Positions 25,937 to 53,933 of a DNA stretch of 64,000 nucleotides are shown one piece after another. Every line of letters begins with the position of its first letter. Position 1 is the stretch's first letter. The position numbers and the translations under genes were made by a program. The stretch is taken from positions 2,108,001 through 2,172,000 of the forward strand of contig NZ_CP025198.1 in the NCBI RefSeq assembly GCF_003325455.1. Direction: 5' to 3'. Source of the stretch: Acidipropionibacterium virtanenii. GTDB lineage: Bacteria > Actinomycetota > Actinomycetes > Propionibacteriales > Propionibacteriaceae. The notes under the pieces are model-generated. The model made no database searches. It was given only the letters and a program-made list of their open reading frames with translations, and was not told the origin of the DNA.

Positions 25937-26011
25937 CTCTGCGCAACGCTGCTCAACGGCGTGAGATTCCCGACCCCCGTTCAGCGGTGCCCGGCCGGCA
26001 GATGCGTCCAG

Positions 26012-26206
26012 GTGCCGACCGCGGTCCCCCGGTTCGCCAGGATGCAGGACTTCGTGGAGGATCCGCCCCGCACCTGGCTGGAACGCATGTTCCACCTGGT
26101 CCGCCACATGGAGATGCCGCACGGCGGACACTTCGCCGCGCTGGAGGCGCCGGACCTCCTGGCCGAGGACCTGCTGGCATTCACGAGTTCACTCGATCAG
26201 GGATGA
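26012..26206 (+). pseudogene. C-terminal remnant of an epoxide hydrolase (alpha/beta hydrolase)
   Basis: About 64 codons read VPTAVPRFARMQDFVEDPPR, then TWLERMFHLVRHMEMPHGGH and FAALEAPDLLAEDLLAF. This is the family C-terminus: the catalytic histidine in MPHGGHFAALE and the preceding arginine-tryptophan region. The N-terminal 300 or so residues with the nucleophile are missing; the DNA upstream belongs to the opposite-strand FrnE gene. It is therefore a truncated gene left by a deletion. Confidence 0.72.
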
Positions 26207-26243
26207 GATCCTGTCCCCACCGGTCTTGGAAGGGAGAACCGCA

Positions 26244-27236
26244 ATGTCCGTCTACCTGACCAGCGATCTCCACATCAGTCACCGCAAGGTCGCGGGCATC
26301 CGCGGCTTCGACGATCTGGCCGCACATGACCGGACCGTCATGTCGAGCCTGCACAAGAAGTTGAGAGCCGAGGACGACCTGTGGATCCTGGGCGACCTGT
26401 CGGCCAGCACCGACGGCGAGGCGGAAGCGCTGGCGCTGCTGGCCGAACTTCCCTGCCGGCTGCACCTGGTGTGCGGCAATCACGACCGTGTCTCGGCCAT
26501 CCACCGCGACGGCTGGAAGCACCAGCGCCGGTTCATGGAGGTGTTCACCTCGGTCTCCGAGTTCGCCCGGCGCCGCGGCCCCGACGGGGTTCAGGTGCTG
26601 CTGTCCCACTATCCCTACGGGGACGCCGACCACACCGACCGGGCGCGCTACACCCAGTGGCGGCTGCCCGATGAGGGCGCGTGGCTGTGCCACGGCCACA
26701 CCCACCAGCCCGAGCGCATCTCCGGCCCGCGGCAGATCCACGTCGGCTGGGACGCCTGGCACCGGCCGGTGGCCTGGCACGAGATCGAGAAGATCATCGG
26801 CGACCCGCTGGCCCGTCCTCCTGTCCCCTTCGAGGTGTTCCGGCCCGGTGTGTACCTGCACGGCACGAAGGCCACGCTGGCTCCCGGTGACGGGGTCGCC
26901 GCCGGACACCGCTCCAATTTCGAGGACGGGCGCGTCAGCAACCACGTGTACATCTCCCAGACCCTGGACGCGGCGGAATGGGGCGCCGAGCTGGCTGTCG
27001 GCGACGGCCCGGGACGCATCTACATCGTCGAACCCACCGGCGACGTCGAGGACGACCCGAACGTCACCGACAAGCGCTTTCCTGGCAATCCGACCCTCTC
27101 CTTCCGCAGCCGCGAACCGGTGCGCGTGGTCGGCGAGCTGGAGAGCTGGACCGGTCACTCCCCCGCCCAGATCTCGGCCATGCGCGACGGGCTGGCCGAG
27201 CTCCGTCGCCGCGGGGAGGCCGTCATCATCGACTGA
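26244..27236 (+). CDS. metallophosphoesterase-Arr (rifamycin ADP-ribosyltransferase) fusion
   Basis: A 330-residue protein with two complete domains. Residues 1-180 form a calcineurin-like phosphoesterase: SDLH (7-10), ILGDLS (48-53), GNHD (78-81), SHYPYGDADH (121-130) and GHTHQ (151-155), all metal-binding blocks present. Residues 196-330 form an Arr domain, with YLHGTKA (H206), NHVYIS (Y236), the central D271 in EDDPN, and KRFPGNPTLSFRSREPVRVVG. In known Arr enzymes this domain transfers ADP-ribose from NAD to rifamycins. ATG 26244 follows GGGAGA. The joint role of the phosphoesterase is unknown. Confidence 0.85.
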   Translation: MSVYLTSDLHISHRKVAGIRGFDDLAAHDRTVMSSLHKKLRAEDDLWILGDLSASTDGEAEALALLAELPCRLHLVCGNHDRVSAIHRDGWKHQRRFMEVFTSVSEFARRRGPDGVQVLLSHYPYGDADHTDRARYTQWRLPDEGAWLCHGHTHQPERISGPRQIHVGWDAWHRPVAWHEIEKIIGDPLARPPVPFEVFRPGVYLHGTKATLAPGDGVAAGHRSNFEDGRVSNHVYISQTLDAAEWGAELAVGDGPGRIYIVEPTGDVEDDPNVTDKRFPGNPTLSFRSREPVRVVGELESWTGHSPAQISAMRDGLAELRRRGEAVIID

Positions 27237-27254
27237 CGACATGCGCCGAACCGA

Positions 27255-28202
27255 TCAGGCATCGGGCGTGACGACCGCCCGGCCCGGCCCGCTGTACGCC
27301 CAGGCGCGGTCGACGCGGGACAGTGGGAAGCCGACATACGGCGCATCGAGGGTGCCGTCGGCGATCGACGCGATGATGTGCGGTATCTGCCCGCGGACGG
27401 TCTCGAAGGACGTGCCTCCGGCCCCGCTGCCGCTGATGCGTATCCGGCGGCTGCGCAGCAGGTCCGCGGGGACCGTCGCCCCCTGTCCGGCGAGCGCGCC
27501 GATCTGCACGTAGGAGATGTCGGTCCGGTCGTCGTCCATCCCGTGCCGACCGAGCGCCGCGAAGGCCGACTCGGCAGCCGCACCCCAGACGTAGTCGAGC
27601 ACGAGCAGTCTCTCCGGATCGCCGATCTCCCGCGCCAGCGCATCCGCGCCGTCGCTGAGGGGGACCGTGACCGCGCCGAACCCGGCGAGACGGGCGAGGG
27701 CCTCGGGATTGCGACCCGCGGCCACCACCCGGTCGGCGCCCATCGTGATCGCCGACTGGACGGCCATCCCGCCCGACATGCCGGTCGCACCCACGACGAC
27801 GACCGTGCCGAGGCCGCCCGGCCGGTCCCGATGCGCGACGAGCGGCATCCACCCCGACATCCCCGGATTGACGCCGGCCGCGATCGCGAGGGGATCGGCG
27901 TCGGGCGGCAGGTCGATGGTCATCGGCATCGCGAGCCGCTCGGCGAAGGTGCCCCACGGCGCCCGGGCACCCGCGGTGTAGACGAGCCGACCCTCCTCCG
28001 TGCGGGCCACCGCGTCGATCCCCGGCACCAGGGGGTAAACGCCCTCGCTGCCGTAGTGCGTACCCGCGGCCAACGAGCGCACGACCTGGTGGATGCCCGC
28101 GGCCACCAGGGTGAGCGGCTCAAGGCCGGGAGCCGGAGAAGGTTCGGGAAAGTCGCCTGCGGCGGGGCCGGTACCGGGCGCCGGGATGACTGCAGCATGC
28201 AT
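27255..28202 (-). CDS. zinc-independent alcohol dehydrogenase / quinone oxidoreductase-like protein
   Basis: An MDR-superfamily enzyme of 315 residues. The Rossmann nucleotide-binding loop is VVVVGATGMSGG (GATGMSGG, about residues 140-149), followed by MGADRVVAAGRNPEAL. The zinc-binding cysteines of classic alcohol dehydrogenases are absent, so a NADPH-quinone or enone reductase-type reaction is likelier. ATG 28202 follows AAGGAG by 7 bases. It is divergent from a TetR repressor and shares an operator region with it, so it is probably induced by a small lipophilic compound. Confidence 0.82.
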   Translation of the reverse strand: MHAAVIPAPGTGPAAGDFPEPSPAPGLEPLTLVAAGIHQVVRSLAAGTHYGSEGVYPLVPGIDAVARTEEGRLVYTAGARAPWGTFAERLAMPMTIDLPPDADPLAIAAGVNPGMSGWMPLVAHRDRPGGLGTVVVVGATGMSGGMAVQSAITMGADRVVAAGRNPEALARLAGFGAVTVPLSDGADALAREIGDPERLLVLDYVWGAAAESAFAALGRHGMDDDRTDISYVQIGALAGQGATVPADLLRSRRIRISGSGAGGTSFETVRGQIPHIIASIADGTLDAPYVGFPLSRVDRAWAYSGPGRAVVTPDA

Positions 28203-28213
28203 GATGCAACTCC

Positions 28214-28254
28214 TTAACATTGTTAACCTGGCATCAGTGTACCTAACGTTGTTA
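28214..28254. promoter_or_regulatory. two TetR operators between the reductase and tetR genes
   Basis: TTAACATTGTTAA (28214-28226) is a perfect palindrome about a central T, and TAACGTTGTTA (28244-28254) is a second one with the TAAC...GTTA arms. Their centres are 29 bp apart. The second overlaps the TAAGCT hexamer (28253-28258) before the tetR GTG. Confidence 0.7.
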
Positions 28255-28265
28255 AGCTGCCAAGA

Positions 28266-28883
28266 GTGAAGGGCATCACCCGGGAAGGGATCGTCGAGGC
28301 CGCGCTCGAGGTGCTCGACGACGGCGGCATCGACGCGGTGACGGTGCGAGCGGTCGCCACGCGCCTCGGCATCAAGGCACCGGCGCTGTACCACCACGTG
28401 CGCAGCAAACAGGATCTGCTGGACGAGATGGGCACCGTGATGCAGCGGCGCGTCAATGCCGCATTCCAGGCCTCGGGAGCCGATCTGCCATGGCCTCAGG
28501 CGCTTGCGGCCTACGCGAGAGCGCTGCGCGCCGAGTACCTGCGACACCGCGACGGCGCCCGGATCTTCAGTGGGACCCGGCTCACCGATCCCGAGGTGCT
28601 GCGCGCGCAGGAGCCCTGGCTCGAACGCGCAGTCGCCGGTGGAGCCGAACTGGATCGCCTGATCGACGCCGCCGAGGCGATCACCGCATTCGTGGTGGGC
28701 TTCGTGATCGAGGAGCAGGAGCGCCGTCAGTCCGGCGGCACCCTGCGCTACTCCGTCGAGGGGCGGGATGCCGCACTCGGCCCTGACGTTCCCCTGGTCA
28801 TCGCGTCAGGACACGGACGATCCGATCATGACGCGCGCTTCGCACGCCAGCTCGACCTGCTGCTGATCGGCATCACCTCGTAG
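28266..28883 (+). CDS. TetR family repressor (TetR_C-type)
   Basis: A 205-residue regulator with an N-terminal helix-turn-helix (REGIVEAALEVLDDGGIDAV and then VRAVATRLGIKAPALYHHVRSK) and a C-terminal ligand-binding domain similar to tetracycline-repressor-like proteins. GTG 28266 lies 7 bases after TAAGCT, a leaderless-type start. The two palindromes between it and the divergent reductase suggest it represses both genes. Confidence 0.85.
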   Translation: MKGITREGIVEAALEVLDDGGIDAVTVRAVATRLGIKAPALYHHVRSKQDLLDEMGTVMQRRVNAAFQASGADLPWPQALAAYARALRAEYLRHRDGARIFSGTRLTDPEVLRAQEPWLERAVAGGAELDRLIDAAEAITAFVVGFVIEEQERRQSGGTLRYSVEGRDAALGPDVPLVIASGHGRSDHDARFARQLDLLLIGITS

Positions 28884-28978
28884 GAGAACCCCTGACGGGG
28901 ACGCCGGACCGCGGGATGCGACCGCGACTCAGGCCTTCGGAACGGCCGCCTCGGCGATCGACCGGATGCCCTCGACAC

Positions 28979-29428
28979 CTACGCGGCGTTCGTTCGTGAA
29001 CGGCCCGCGATCAGGTACGCCGGCACGGCCACGAGGATCACGACGACATGCATGGCCATAAGGCCGAGGACCCCGGACCAGTTGGCGCCGGGGATGAAGC
29101 CCAGGGTTCCCAGCGCGACGTCGGGGATGAACGACAGCACGCCGACCACGGGCACCAGCCAGCGGAGGAGGCGTTCGGGGCGCCGGGAGCGGTGCTGGAT
29201 GATCCGCCAGCCGGCCCAACCTGCCAGGATGCCGACGAGCGTGAAGGCGCCGAAGACAGGCAGCGTGAGCGGCGAGAAGCCGGGCGTCGCTCCCCCGGCC
29301 GTCGCCAGTCGTGCAACCACGGCGTTGACGGCTGCCGCGACGATCACGGCCGCCGTCAGCACGAGACTCGTACGACCCGCCGAGACCCTGGGGACATTGC
29401 GATCGAGTGCGTCGGTCTGAGTTGTCAT
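28979..29428 (-). CDS. four-helix membrane protein (DUF6069-like)
   Basis: A 149-residue membrane protein with four predicted helices, among them SLVLTAAVIVAAAVNAVVAR, LTLPVFGAFTLVGILAGWAG and VLGLMAMHVVVILVAVPAYL. It resembles small DUF6069-type proteins. ATG 29428 follows GGAGG by 7 bases. It is divergent from the TetR gene at 29513, across an 84-bp gap with operator-like sequence, and is probably its target. Function unknown. Confidence 0.72.
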   Translation of the reverse strand: MTTQTDALDRNVPRVSAGRTSLVLTAAVIVAAAVNAVVARLATAGGATPGFSPLTLPVFGAFTLVGILAGWAGWRIIQHRSRRPERLLRWLVPVVGVLSFIPDVALGTLGFIPGANWSGVLGLMAMHVVVILVAVPAYLIAGRSRTNAA

Positions 29429-29473
29429 GATGACCACCTCCCGAGATTCGGAACTGATGAGTTCCATATTAAA

Positions 29474-29512
29474 ACGAGACCGGTCAGTTTCGAAACGCGC
29501 TAGGGTGATGCT
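29474..29512 (+). promoter_or_regulatory. operator and leaderless promoter of the second tetR
   Basis: AAACGAGACCGGTCAGTTT around 29473-29491 has a GACCGGTC palindrome with partly matching AAAC/GTTT flanks. TAGGGT at 29501-29506 is followed by 6 bases and the GTG at 29513. It sits between the divergent membrane protein and this tetR. Confidence 0.45.
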
Positions 29513-30097
29513 GTGAGCGAACAGGAGCCGACGCCGGGGCGCCCTCAGGATCCCGCCATCGACGAGGCGATCCTGAGAGCGGCCCAGGATCTCCTCATCG
29601 AGCGCGGCGTCTCCAGGATGACGGTGGACGCCGTCGCCCGGGCGGCCGGCTCGGGCAAGGCGGCGGTGTACCGGCGCTGGGGCAGCAAGAACGCCCTCGT
29701 CGTAGCCGCGGTGCGCGCCCTCTACGACCCCCCCGAGACGCCGGACACCGGCTCTCTGCGCAGCGACCTCATCGCCTGCGCCCGGCACTACGCCAATGAC
29801 GACCACCGGGCGCTCCTGATCCTGGGCAGCGTGCTCAGCCAGCTGGGCACCGACGCCGAACTGGCGAAGGCCGCCTATGAGGCGGTCGGCTCACCGCCCG
29901 CCCGGATGCTCGAAGCTGTACTCAGACGCTGGACGACGGCAGGCGTCATCCCCCACCGGGCGCCAACCGACCTGGTGGCCGCAGTGCTGCCATCGATCGC
30001 ATTCACCAATGTGGTACTGCGCCGCGAGACCTTCGACATGGCGACGGCCGAAGAGCTGGTGGATCAGGTCATGCTGCCCGCACTGCTGAGCCACTAA
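29513..30097 (+). CDS. TetR/AcrR family regulator
   Basis: A 194-residue regulator. The DNA-binding part reads AILRAAQDLLIERGVSRMTV then AVARAAGSGKAAVYRRWGSK, close to the AcrR pattern; the rest is an all-helical ligand domain similar to TetR_C_16-type. It starts at GTG 29513 after TAGGGT. It likely represses the divergent membrane protein gene at 28979-29428. The inducer is unknown. Confidence 0.82.
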   Translation: MSEQEPTPGRPQDPAIDEAILRAAQDLLIERGVSRMTVDAVARAAGSGKAAVYRRWGSKNALVVAAVRALYDPPETPDTGSLRSDLIACARHYANDDHRALLILGSVLSQLGTDAELAKAAYEAVGSPPARMLEAVLRRWTTAGVIPHRAPTDLVAAVLPSIAFTNVVLRRETFDMATAEELVDQVMLPALLSH

Positions 30098-52109: not shown

Positions 52110-53870
52110 ATGGAACCCACATCCGACGAAGCATCGGCCACGCAGGAACCGCAGCTACTGGCGGTGTCCTACCTACGGGTGTCCACACGTGAGCAGGCCG
52201 AGCGCGGCGGCACCGAGGAAGGCTTCTCCATCCCCGCCCAACGCGAAGCCAACGCAAGGAAGGCCGCCGACCTCGGTGCCCGGATCGTCCGCGAGTTCGT
52301 GGATGCGGGCGAGTCCGCACGCTCCGCCGACCGGCCAGCACTCCAGGAGATGCTCGCGTTCATCGCCGCAACGCGGGTCCAGGTGTGCCTGGTGCACAAG
52401 GTCGACCGGCTGGCCCGCAACCGCCTCGACGACGTCCACATCCAACAAGCACTCATGGAAGCAGGCGTCACCCTTGTCTCCGCGACCGAGTCCATCGACG
52501 AGACCCCCTCAGGGATGCTGGTCCACGGCATCATGTCGTCCATCGCAGAGTTCTACAGCCGCAACCTCGCCACCGAAGTCACCAAGGGCATGACGCAGAA
52601 GGTCGCCCAGGGCGGCACCCCCATGCGAGCCCCCATCGGTTACCTCAACGTCCGCCGCACCGACGAGCAAGGCCGGGAAGTCAGGACAGTCGAGATCGAC
52701 CCGGAGCGTGCCCCGCTGATCCGGTGGGCATTCGAGACCTACGCGCGCGGTGAAACCTCCGTCGTCCAGTTGCTGCTGGACATCACCGCCCGCGGCCTGG
52801 TCACCGTGCCGTCGCCGAAGCGCCCCTCCAAACCACTCGGGCGGAACACGCTGTACAAGCTGCTGTCCAACCCGTACTACGCCGGGATCATCCGCTACAA
52901 GGGCGCCCTTCACCCCGGAGCCCACGAGCCCCTCATCGAACCGGCCCTGTTCGACCAAGTCCAATCGCTTTTGAAGGCCCGCAACGCCCATGCGACGCGG
53001 CACGTGCAGCACGCCCACCACCTCAAAGGCCTGCTCTTCTGCGGGAACTGTGGGTCACGGATGCTGTTGGACTATGCGACGAACCCGCGCGGCACGACCT
53101 ACGCCTACTTCGTCTGCTCCGGGCGTGCCGCCAAGAAGACCGCCTGCACGCGGCGTGCCGTGCCCGTCCAGGTGGCCGAACGCCTCGTCGAAGACTCCTA
53201 CGCCAGCATCACCATCAGCGAAGCCGACTACCAACATCTCGCCGCCGACATCGACACCGCCTTCGACCAGCGCTCCGCCGCGCGGGACCAAGAACTCGCC
53301 GACCTCACCGCGAACCGTGGGCGTCTCGAATCAGAAAGCGACAAGCTGCTGGCCGCGCACTTCGCCGACGCCATTGACCTAACCACCTTGAAACGTCATC
53401 AGGATCGCATCCGTGCCGGGCTCGCCGACATCGACCAGCGCCTCGCCGCCCACACAGAGCAGTACACGGGAGGCCGCGCGTTCCTGCACGACTCCCTCAG
53501 CCTGCTCACCGACGCCCACCACATGTACGCCCACTCCGATGACGCCAACCGGCGACTCGCATGCCAGGCCTTATACGAGCGTCTCGAGATCACCGACGAC
53601 GAACACCTCCGCCCGCACCTGGCCGAACCGTTCGCCACCCTCATCGGCAACGACACCAGCACCGGCGCATCAGAAGACCCCGGAAACGCCGAACGGGAAC
53701 ACCCCACATCTACCGATGTCAAGTGTTCCCGTAAGGAACTTTTGGTGGAGCATAGGGGATTCGAACCCCTGACCTCTTCCATGCCATGGAAGCGCGCTAC
53801 CAACTGCGCCAATGCCCCAGAATGCGGCCTCGCGGCCTTTTCTGGCATTTCCTGTCAGAGTGGAGCATAG
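52110..53870 (+). CDS. large serine recombinase running into tRNA-Ala
   Basis: A 586-codon frame of a large serine integrase. The catalytic serine is in SYLRVSTREQ near residue 25; the recombinase core holds KVDRLARNRLDD; then a domain with the zinc-ribbon pair CGNCGSRML and VCSGRAAKKTACTRR, and a long coiled-coil. The last 45 codons read antisense through the first tRNA-Ala (residues VEHRGFEPLT...), so the true end is unclear; the biological C-terminus may be shorter or the frame may have been fused by insertion. It probably mobilised the 42.6-53.7 kb island. Confidence 0.85.
   Translation: MEPTSDEASATQEPQLLAVSYLRVSTREQAERGGTEEGFSIPAQREANARKAADLGARIVREFVDAGESARSADRPALQEMLAFIAATRVQVCLVHKVDRLARNRLDDVHIQQALMEAGVTLVSATESIDETPSGMLVHGIMSSIAEFYSRNLATEVTKGMTQKVAQGGTPMRAPIGYLNVRRTDEQGREVRTVEIDPERAPLIRWAFETYARGETSVVQLLLDITARGLVTVPSPKRPSKPLGRNTLYKLLSNPYYAGIIRYKGALHPGAHEPLIEPALFDQVQSLLKARNAHATRHVQHAHHLKGLLFCGNCGSRMLLDYATNPRGTTYAYFVCSGRAAKKTACTRRAVPVQVAERLVEDSYASITISEADYQHLAADIDTAFDQRSAARDQELADLTANRGRLESESDKLLAAHFADAIDLTTLKRHQDRIRAGLADIDQRLAAHTEQYTGGRAFLHDSLSLLTDAHHMYAHSDDANRRLACQALYERLEITDDEHLRPHLAEPFATLIGNDTSTGASEDPGNAEREHPTSTDVKCSRKELLVEHRGFEPLTSSMPWKRATNCANAPECGLAAFSGISCQSGA
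53743..53818 (-). tRNA. tRNA-Ala (GGC), first copy with encoded CCA
   Basis: The minus strand reads GGGGCATTGGCGCAGTTGGT at the 5' end and ends with TTCGAATCCCC and the 3' arm ATGCTCC, pairing with GGGGCAT, then A and CCA. The anticodon stem is CTTCC/GGAAG with loop ATGGCAT, so the anticodon is GGC. It is 76 bases with CCA. The recombinase frame runs through it antisense. Confidence 0.95.
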
Positions 53871-53933
53871 GGGATTCGAACCCCTGACCTCTTCCATGCC
53901 ATGGAAGCGCGCTACCAACTGCGCCAATGCCCC
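53861..53933 (-). tRNA. tRNA-Ala (GGC), second copy without encoded CCA
   Basis: Identical to the first copy over the 73-base body, but the bases after the discriminator A are CTC rather than CCA. The copies are separated by 42 bases. Different 3' flanks suggest that one was brought or duplicated with the mobile element. Confidence 0.95.

Follow-up and report, generated by a model that had tools for sequence, protein, structure and literature searches.

Does an enzyme that marks rifamycins work together with a phosphoesterase when the two are carried on one polypeptide, or do they merely share a chain? The question is raised by an open reading frame (ORF) of Acidipropionibacterium virtanenii in which a metallophosphoesterase (MPE) is followed by an Arr-type ADP-ribosyltransferase. 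The ORF lies at 26244–27236 on the forward strand of the stretch of DNA analysed here (the window; 64,000 nucleotides of contig NZ_CP025198.1), opens with an ATG at 26244 and encodes a single protein of 330 amino acids, with no internal stops. From the sequence of the window, an initial annotation had proposed that the phosphoesterase processes what Arr has modified, in a coupled mark-and-remove enzyme.

A single ORF encodes two complete domains

The gene is a real, intact, in-frame fusion of MPE and Arr, and both sets of active-site motifs are complete (Table 1). Its description as two complete, joined domains holds: the Pfam and NCBIfam cut-offs are passed and all of the motifs are present. 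So does the reported lack of a stop or frameshift between them, as one ORF covers both domains. GC content at third codon positions is highest in one and the same frame at each 90-base step through the gene and the junction, with a single tie, and this one-frame signature, running through the junction, disfavours a frameshift artefact. An error in assembly or sequencing, or a pseudogene in decay that only appears fused, would fit the fact that the same fusion was found in no homologue, but is highly improbable. The source genome is a single contig with a completeness of 100, the codon-position signature stays steady across the junction, and both halves are conserved as they are in their relatives. 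The MPE half departs from the consensus at 1 of the 27 columns that are at least 90% conserved (P85A), compared with 0–9 departures in its relatives (15 sequences), and the Arr half at 2 of 46, compared with 0–7 (25 sequences); by this measure, neither half looks decayed. Of the two findings that together had been named as counting against the fusion, a lack of fused homologues was indeed observed, but signs of an assembly error were not. Promoter- or terminator-like sites were not found in 26000–27400, and a search of a defence-system library gave no match.

Table 1. Features of the fused gene in the window, and viral proteins that combine Arr-like and 2H phosphoesterase domains.
Feature	Source	Positions	Strand	Basis or remark
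Shine-Dalgarno-like GGAAGGGAG	window	26228..26236	+	7 bases upstream of ATG; read from sequence
MPE half, residues 1–188	window	26244..26807	+	profile matches, motifs, alignment, predicted fold
Arr half, residues 189–330, complete, close to Arr-ms	window	26808..27233	+	Pfam, NCBIfam, PDB alignment, motifs
Stop codon of the fused ORF	window	27234..27236	+	ORF reading
Arr-like + 2H protein	IMG/VR, L164	5938–7701		
Arr-like + 2H protein	IMG/VR, L167	5917–7026		
Arr-like + 2H protein	IMG/VR, L168	5794–8697		
Arr-like + 2H protein	IMG/VR, L165	1375–6849		
Arr-like + 2H + NUDIX protein	IMG/VR, L154	5929–12126		
Arr-like + 2H + NUDIX protein	IMG/VR, L162	541–6081		four Arr-like stretches

The metallophosphoesterase half

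The calcineurin-like metallophosphoesterase superfamily is marked by five metal-site motifs, DxH, GD, GNHD/E, H and GHxH. All five were located in the N-terminal part of the protein, in agreement with the five metal-binding blocks of the initial annotation: D8-x-H10, G50-D51, G78-N-H-D81, S121-H122 and G151-H-T-H154. In an alignment of 15 family members, H10, D51, N79, H80, H122, H152 and H154 are invariant, while D8 and D81 are at least 90% conserved. The Pfam family Metallophos_2 matches residues 1–157 with 43.9 bits (cut-off 27), and Metallophos matches residues 1–156 with 37.2 bits (cut-off 21.5).

The AlphaFold2 model of this half (10-residue mean pLDDT 84–98) has the fold of the superfamily. 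Its nearest solved structure is AQ_1665 of Aquifex, a functionally unassigned protein of metallophosphoesterase fold (1XM7; Z 20.3, rmsd 2.5 over 164 residues by VIA-align), which is also the sole phosphoesterase that a sequence search of the PDB matched at E ≤ 0.01. Unlike the fusion, AQ_1665 has 186–195 residues and no Arr domain. LpxH fills the next VIA-align rows with Z 11.4–12.1, and GpdQ, PptH, PolD DP1 and Mre11 follow little below it with Z 10–11. Because the LpxH value of about 12 barely exceeds those of GpdQ, PptH, PolD and Mre11, the substrate specificity of the MPE half cannot be read from its fold, and the resemblance of the predicted structure to LpxH is one of superfamily level. 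The LpxH sequence model PRK05340 (NF003743) likewise places the protein outside its family, with 18.3 bits against a cut-off of 134.

Relatives of the MPE half are common in actinobacterial phages and are also present on plasmids and chromosomes. The phage phosphoesterase profile phrog_547 matches residues 1–185 (4.4e-43), and its phage, plasmid and chromosomal members share the metal motifs of the MPE half and have a similar C-terminal end. The profile is a broad one: of 14 named control genomes, 11 contain matches to it, so a phage origin of this half is not demonstrated by the match. In the source genome, the one match to it lies inside the fused gene. An alignment-based scan gave 60 viral MPE proteins with 31–53% identity to the MPE half. 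In contrast to the fusion, all 60 have at most 48 residues following the domain, which leaves no C-terminal partner, and none of the 60 loci has Arr nearby, in flanks that reached up to 6 kb; the survey covered the C-terminal side, and some of the 60 ORFs have long N-terminal stretches.

The Arr half

Residues 204–302 match the Arr-ms profile PF12120 with 154.9 bits (cut-off 25), and residues 203–329 match the NCBIfam rifampin_ARR equivalog NF033144 with 188.2 bits (cut-off 130); the narrower exception model NF000318 gives 217.7 bits, which is below its cut-off of 250. Residues 189–330 align without a gap to residues 2–143 (of 143) of Arr-ms (2HW2), with 67% identity, so that the whole enzyme is covered. 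The alignment places H206, Y236 and D271 of the fusion at H19, Y49 and D84 of Arr-ms, and KRFPGNPT stands at residues 277–284, so the identities of the residues named in the initial annotation are verified. According to the available text of PMC13246000, H19, Y49 and D84 (Arr-ms numbering) are required for Arr activity. The closeness to Arr-ms suggests that the Arr half would be placed in subgroup Arr-1 rather than Arr-X under the scheme given in that part of the article.

The fusion differs from known Arr enzymes in what precedes the domain. Solved Arr chains are single-domain proteins of 143–151 residues, whereas here a second enzyme sits directly on the N-terminus. A typical Arr is a stand-alone protein of about 140 residues, a property that does not define the fold and from which the fusion, with its ORF of 330 residues, departs. 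The only PF12120 match in the source genome is the one inside the fused gene. Residues 200–274 (26841–27065 of the window) also weakly match phrog_17296, a phage family of unknown function (E 0.00046).

Two whole proteins abut without a linker

In the AlphaFold2 model, the MPE half ends in a helix at residues 178–186. For 12 of the 14 other MPEs aligned with it, the C-terminus falls no more than about 6 residues from residue 188; the remaining two (L090 and L068) extend about 11 and 21 residues further. On the other side of the joint, the column of residue 189 holds a methionine in 5 of 24 other Arr rows, which are trimmed to BLAST extents, and 9IAF also has a methionine there. With the last MPE helix ending at 186 and Arr proteins beginning at 189, two whole proteins abut, and the linker that had been assigned to residues 181–195 disappears into the two enzymes. 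The arrangement of the two domains in space is not claimed here, as the model of the Arr half is poor (10-residue mean pLDDT 39–82, with two Arr rows in the alignment).

The usual initiator position of Arr is occupied in the fusion by a CTG leucine codon, with no ordinary start codon at that place. In-frame GTG codons occur near the joint at residues 176, 198 and 203; starts at 198 and 203 would truncate Arr, and 176 falls within the MPE. Given the CTG codon and the positions of these GTGs, separate translation of Arr does not appear to be favoured.

The genomic setting is variable

The fused gene stands alone, flanked on one side by a divergent DsbA-like gene and on the other by a convergent dehydrogenase-like gene, the latter followed by a TetR regulator. 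The ADH_zinc_N match of the dehydrogenase-like neighbour is under its cut-off. In a sister species (G001), the DsbA-like gene is conserved, as are the ORFs at 28979–30097, and between them lie another dehydrogenase gene and one resembling a deaminase (both named by eye from their translations). The stretch 26131–28979 of the window, between the DsbA-like gene and the conserved ORFs that start at 28979, is thus a variable spot, in which no sign of a mobile element was noticed. Elsewhere in the window, at 53743–53933 on the reverse strand, there are two tandem tRNA-Ala (GGC) genes with equal Rfam scores.

The fusion was found in one genome

Whole-protein searches of five overlapping genome samples, in the three largest of which at most 5 candidates per genome were scored, returned numerous matches to Arr and some to the MPE. 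Among the matches listed, the fusion occurs in the genome of the window alone (1 of 57, 198, 391, 394 and 396 genomes). When the whole protein was searched with tblastn, 1842 plasmid records and 210 phage records matched, none of them over 80% of the query; the phage, plasmid and contig collections may omit the window's own species or very near genomes. A search for related loci by pattern gave 73 stretches in genome contigs and 2 in viral contigs, with no confirmed fusion among them. A spacing-constrained DNA pattern, in which the HGHxH and DAW motifs of the MPE are tied to the HGTxA of Arr with gaps of -3 to +7 codons (first) and ±5 codons (second) relative to the window, recovers the window and has no match in viral contigs or GTDB genome contigs. 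Its MPE half finds 5 of 10 MPE loci of other genomes (12 before the own-genome rows L079 and L082 were dropped), and its Arr half finds 58 of 64 Arr hits, a figure that includes some genes twice, where two loci span the same gene. Since the pattern is only about half-sensitive to divergent relatives, a divergent fusion could escape detection, and the status of the fusion as a singleton may be overstated.

The loci themselves give the same picture. In the 10 MPE loci and 4 Arr loci that were read as ORFs, the two domains are always separate, and the 1.5 kb flanks of 61 Arr loci (L003–L063) contain no MPE hit that spans residues 20–160, shorter hits being left out. Adjacent but separate MPE and arr genes, of the kind that might be ancestral to a fusion, were not seen among the matches listed. 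One genome alone (G461) holds both genes among these matches, at a distance of about 0.84 Mb. Two long matches were considered as further fusions and rejected: the match to residues 2–235 in G621 is an MPE alone, and that to residues 4–241 in G657 is an MPE with a C-terminal Xre/MbcA/ParS domain in place of Arr. In this second protein (L065, 1828–2631), the Xre/MbcA/ParS toxin-binding domain scores exactly the Pfam cut-off of 24.5 bits, and its domain content makes an antitoxin-phosphoesterase fusion possible.

As far as its text was available, the literature searched does not report an MPE-Arr fusion, and the words fusion, fused and phosphoesterase are absent from the available text of PMC8492726. 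The fusion is most likely lineage-specific, and these searches turned up no other like it.

Other unusual Arr arrangements were seen in the genome searches. Tandem Arr matches occur at G1049:C43:8961-9635 and G811:C12:235248-235892. In G1049, both matches lie in a stop-free open frame of 301 amino acids, suggesting a putative double-Arr protein; one of the G811 matches is interrupted by stops. Two members of one genus (G099:C31:292471-292830 and G100:C1:2743648-2743960) carry arr matches split into adjacent pieces, as if from broken genes.

What the two halves may do

In this end-to-end fusion of two complete genes, we rate as somewhat better than even the chance that the two halves are merely tethered. 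Under such tethering, the Arr half would move ADP-ribose from NAD onto a hydroxyl group in the ansa bridge of rifamycin, the ADP-ribosylated drug would be inactive against RNA polymerase, and the MPE half would be an active two-metal phosphoesterase with a substrate of its own. Judged by family membership, rifamycin is most likely the substrate of the Arr half; judged by its motifs, the MPE half is most likely active. The available text of PMC8597724 records that ADP-ribosyl-rifampicin did not inhibit RNA polymerase.

The neighbourhoods of other arr genes bear on whether the two activities belong together. Around 60 arr genes, 117 neighbouring ORFs were chosen by length and codon-position GC, some of them wrongly, and the 25 commonest of their 150 Pfam families were considered. 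HAD-type hydrolases account for 2 of the 117, and metallophosphoesterase, 2H and NUDIX families are not among these 25. HAD-type hydrolases include phosphatases. With no second fusion found and no metallophosphoesterase, 2H or NUDIX among the commonest neighbour families, a routine coupling of Arr to phosphoesterases is not borne out. If the halves are uncoupled, the protein simply exemplifies the fusion of two enzyme genes within a single lineage. Against mere tethering, it counts that both active sites are kept intact, which may well reflect selection for joint action.

One form of joint action would be to mark the drug and then trim the mark. The Arr half would ADP-ribosylate rifamycin, and the tethered MPE would cut the pyrophosphate, with release of AMP, and/or take off the phosphate still left, so that phosphoribosyl- or ribosyl-rifamycin results; the cell would thereby regain AMP and obtain an exportable conjugate. 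We regard this as unlikely, although it has points in its favour. Both active sites look intact, and the LpxH structures that come next after 1XM7 belong to a UDP-sugar pyrophosphatase (UDP-2,3-diacylglucosamine diphosphatase). Set against this are the small lead of LpxH over GpdQ, PptH, PolD and Mre11 in fold score, and its sequence score far under the cut-off. Three observations make tethering without coupling likelier than trimming: the searches gave no second fusion, members of the MPE family are found without Arr, and the commonest families among arr neighbours lack metallophosphoesterases, 2H and NUDIX. Arr confers resistance of clinical relevance, and the fate of its product speaks for trimming: phosphatases can convert rifamycin ADP-ribose conjugates to ribose conjugates, which leave the cell, and ribosyl-rifabutin built up in the medium and was undetected in an arr deletion strain (PMC8370238, available text). 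That text credits phosphatases and names no enzyme, and the literature searched, as far as its text was available, likewise names no catalyst for the step from ADP-ribosyl- to ribosyl-rifamycin. If the halves do mark and trim, this one-chain enzyme would be a named catalyst of that step, and separate phosphoesterases of the MPE family would become candidates for it elsewhere. As a natural Arr-phosphoesterase fusion, it offers a single protein in which the ribosyl-rifamycin step can be tested directly.

Removal of the mark is another matter. The bonds cut by metallophosphoesterases are phosphoesters or pyrophosphates; the removal of ADP-ribose from its acceptor needs a glycosidic hydrolase. The MPE half could therefore trim the mark and would not be expected to take the ribose off the drug, and the proposed mark-and-remove activity does not suit the bond chemistry of the superfamily. 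What stands of the earlier interpretation is the completeness of the two domains and their fusion; mark-and-remove and routine coupling find no support.

Arr-like domains and phosphoesterases in viral proteins

In a second form of joint action, the substrate of the fusion would be an NAD derivative or nucleic-acid ends, with the MPE preparing or repairing phosphate ends and Arr modifying them, as in the processing of RNA or DNA ends. Viral proteins lend this some support. Among viral ORFs longer than 300 amino acids, 15 have an Arr hit; 12 of these were scanned, and all 12 score over the Arr cut-off. A 2H (2′-5′ RNA ligase-like) phosphoesterase domain is present in 6 of the 12, and 2 of those 6 also have a NUDIX domain (Table 1). 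These multidomain proteins resemble the fusion in carrying an Arr-family ADP-ribosyltransferase and a phosphoesterase in one chain. They differ from it in that the phosphoesterase belongs to another superfamily, the Arr domain is divergent and the protein is usually large. 2H phosphoesterases are metal-independent. Taken with the MPE-Arr fusion, the viral 2H proteins show that the joining of an Arr-type transferase to a phosphoesterase is not limited to a single setting. Such a recurrent pairing across superfamilies is suggestive of a chemical reason, though not proof of one. A link of this kind is also described for phage RNA repair, where KptA/sirtuin ADP-ribosyl transfer goes with 2H and calcineurin-like enzymes (PMC9503650, available text).

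Action on nucleic-acid ends is nevertheless decidedly improbable for the fusion. Its Arr half is close to Arr-ms, at the identity to 2HW2 given above, whereas the viral domains are divergent, with 27–40% identity in the best hits of the 12. The viral proteins are mostly large and multidomain, so that the co-occurrence of domains in them says little about a shared substrate, and rifampin is described in the available text of PMC3138739 as the only known Arr substrate. In PMC5512222, 2H domains are described in polyvalent proteins of this kind, and the words Arr and rifampin do not occur in the available main text. In alignments, the viral Arr-like domains retain the H of the H-Y-D residues but often have F or H in place of the Y, and the D stands opposite a gap in L167.
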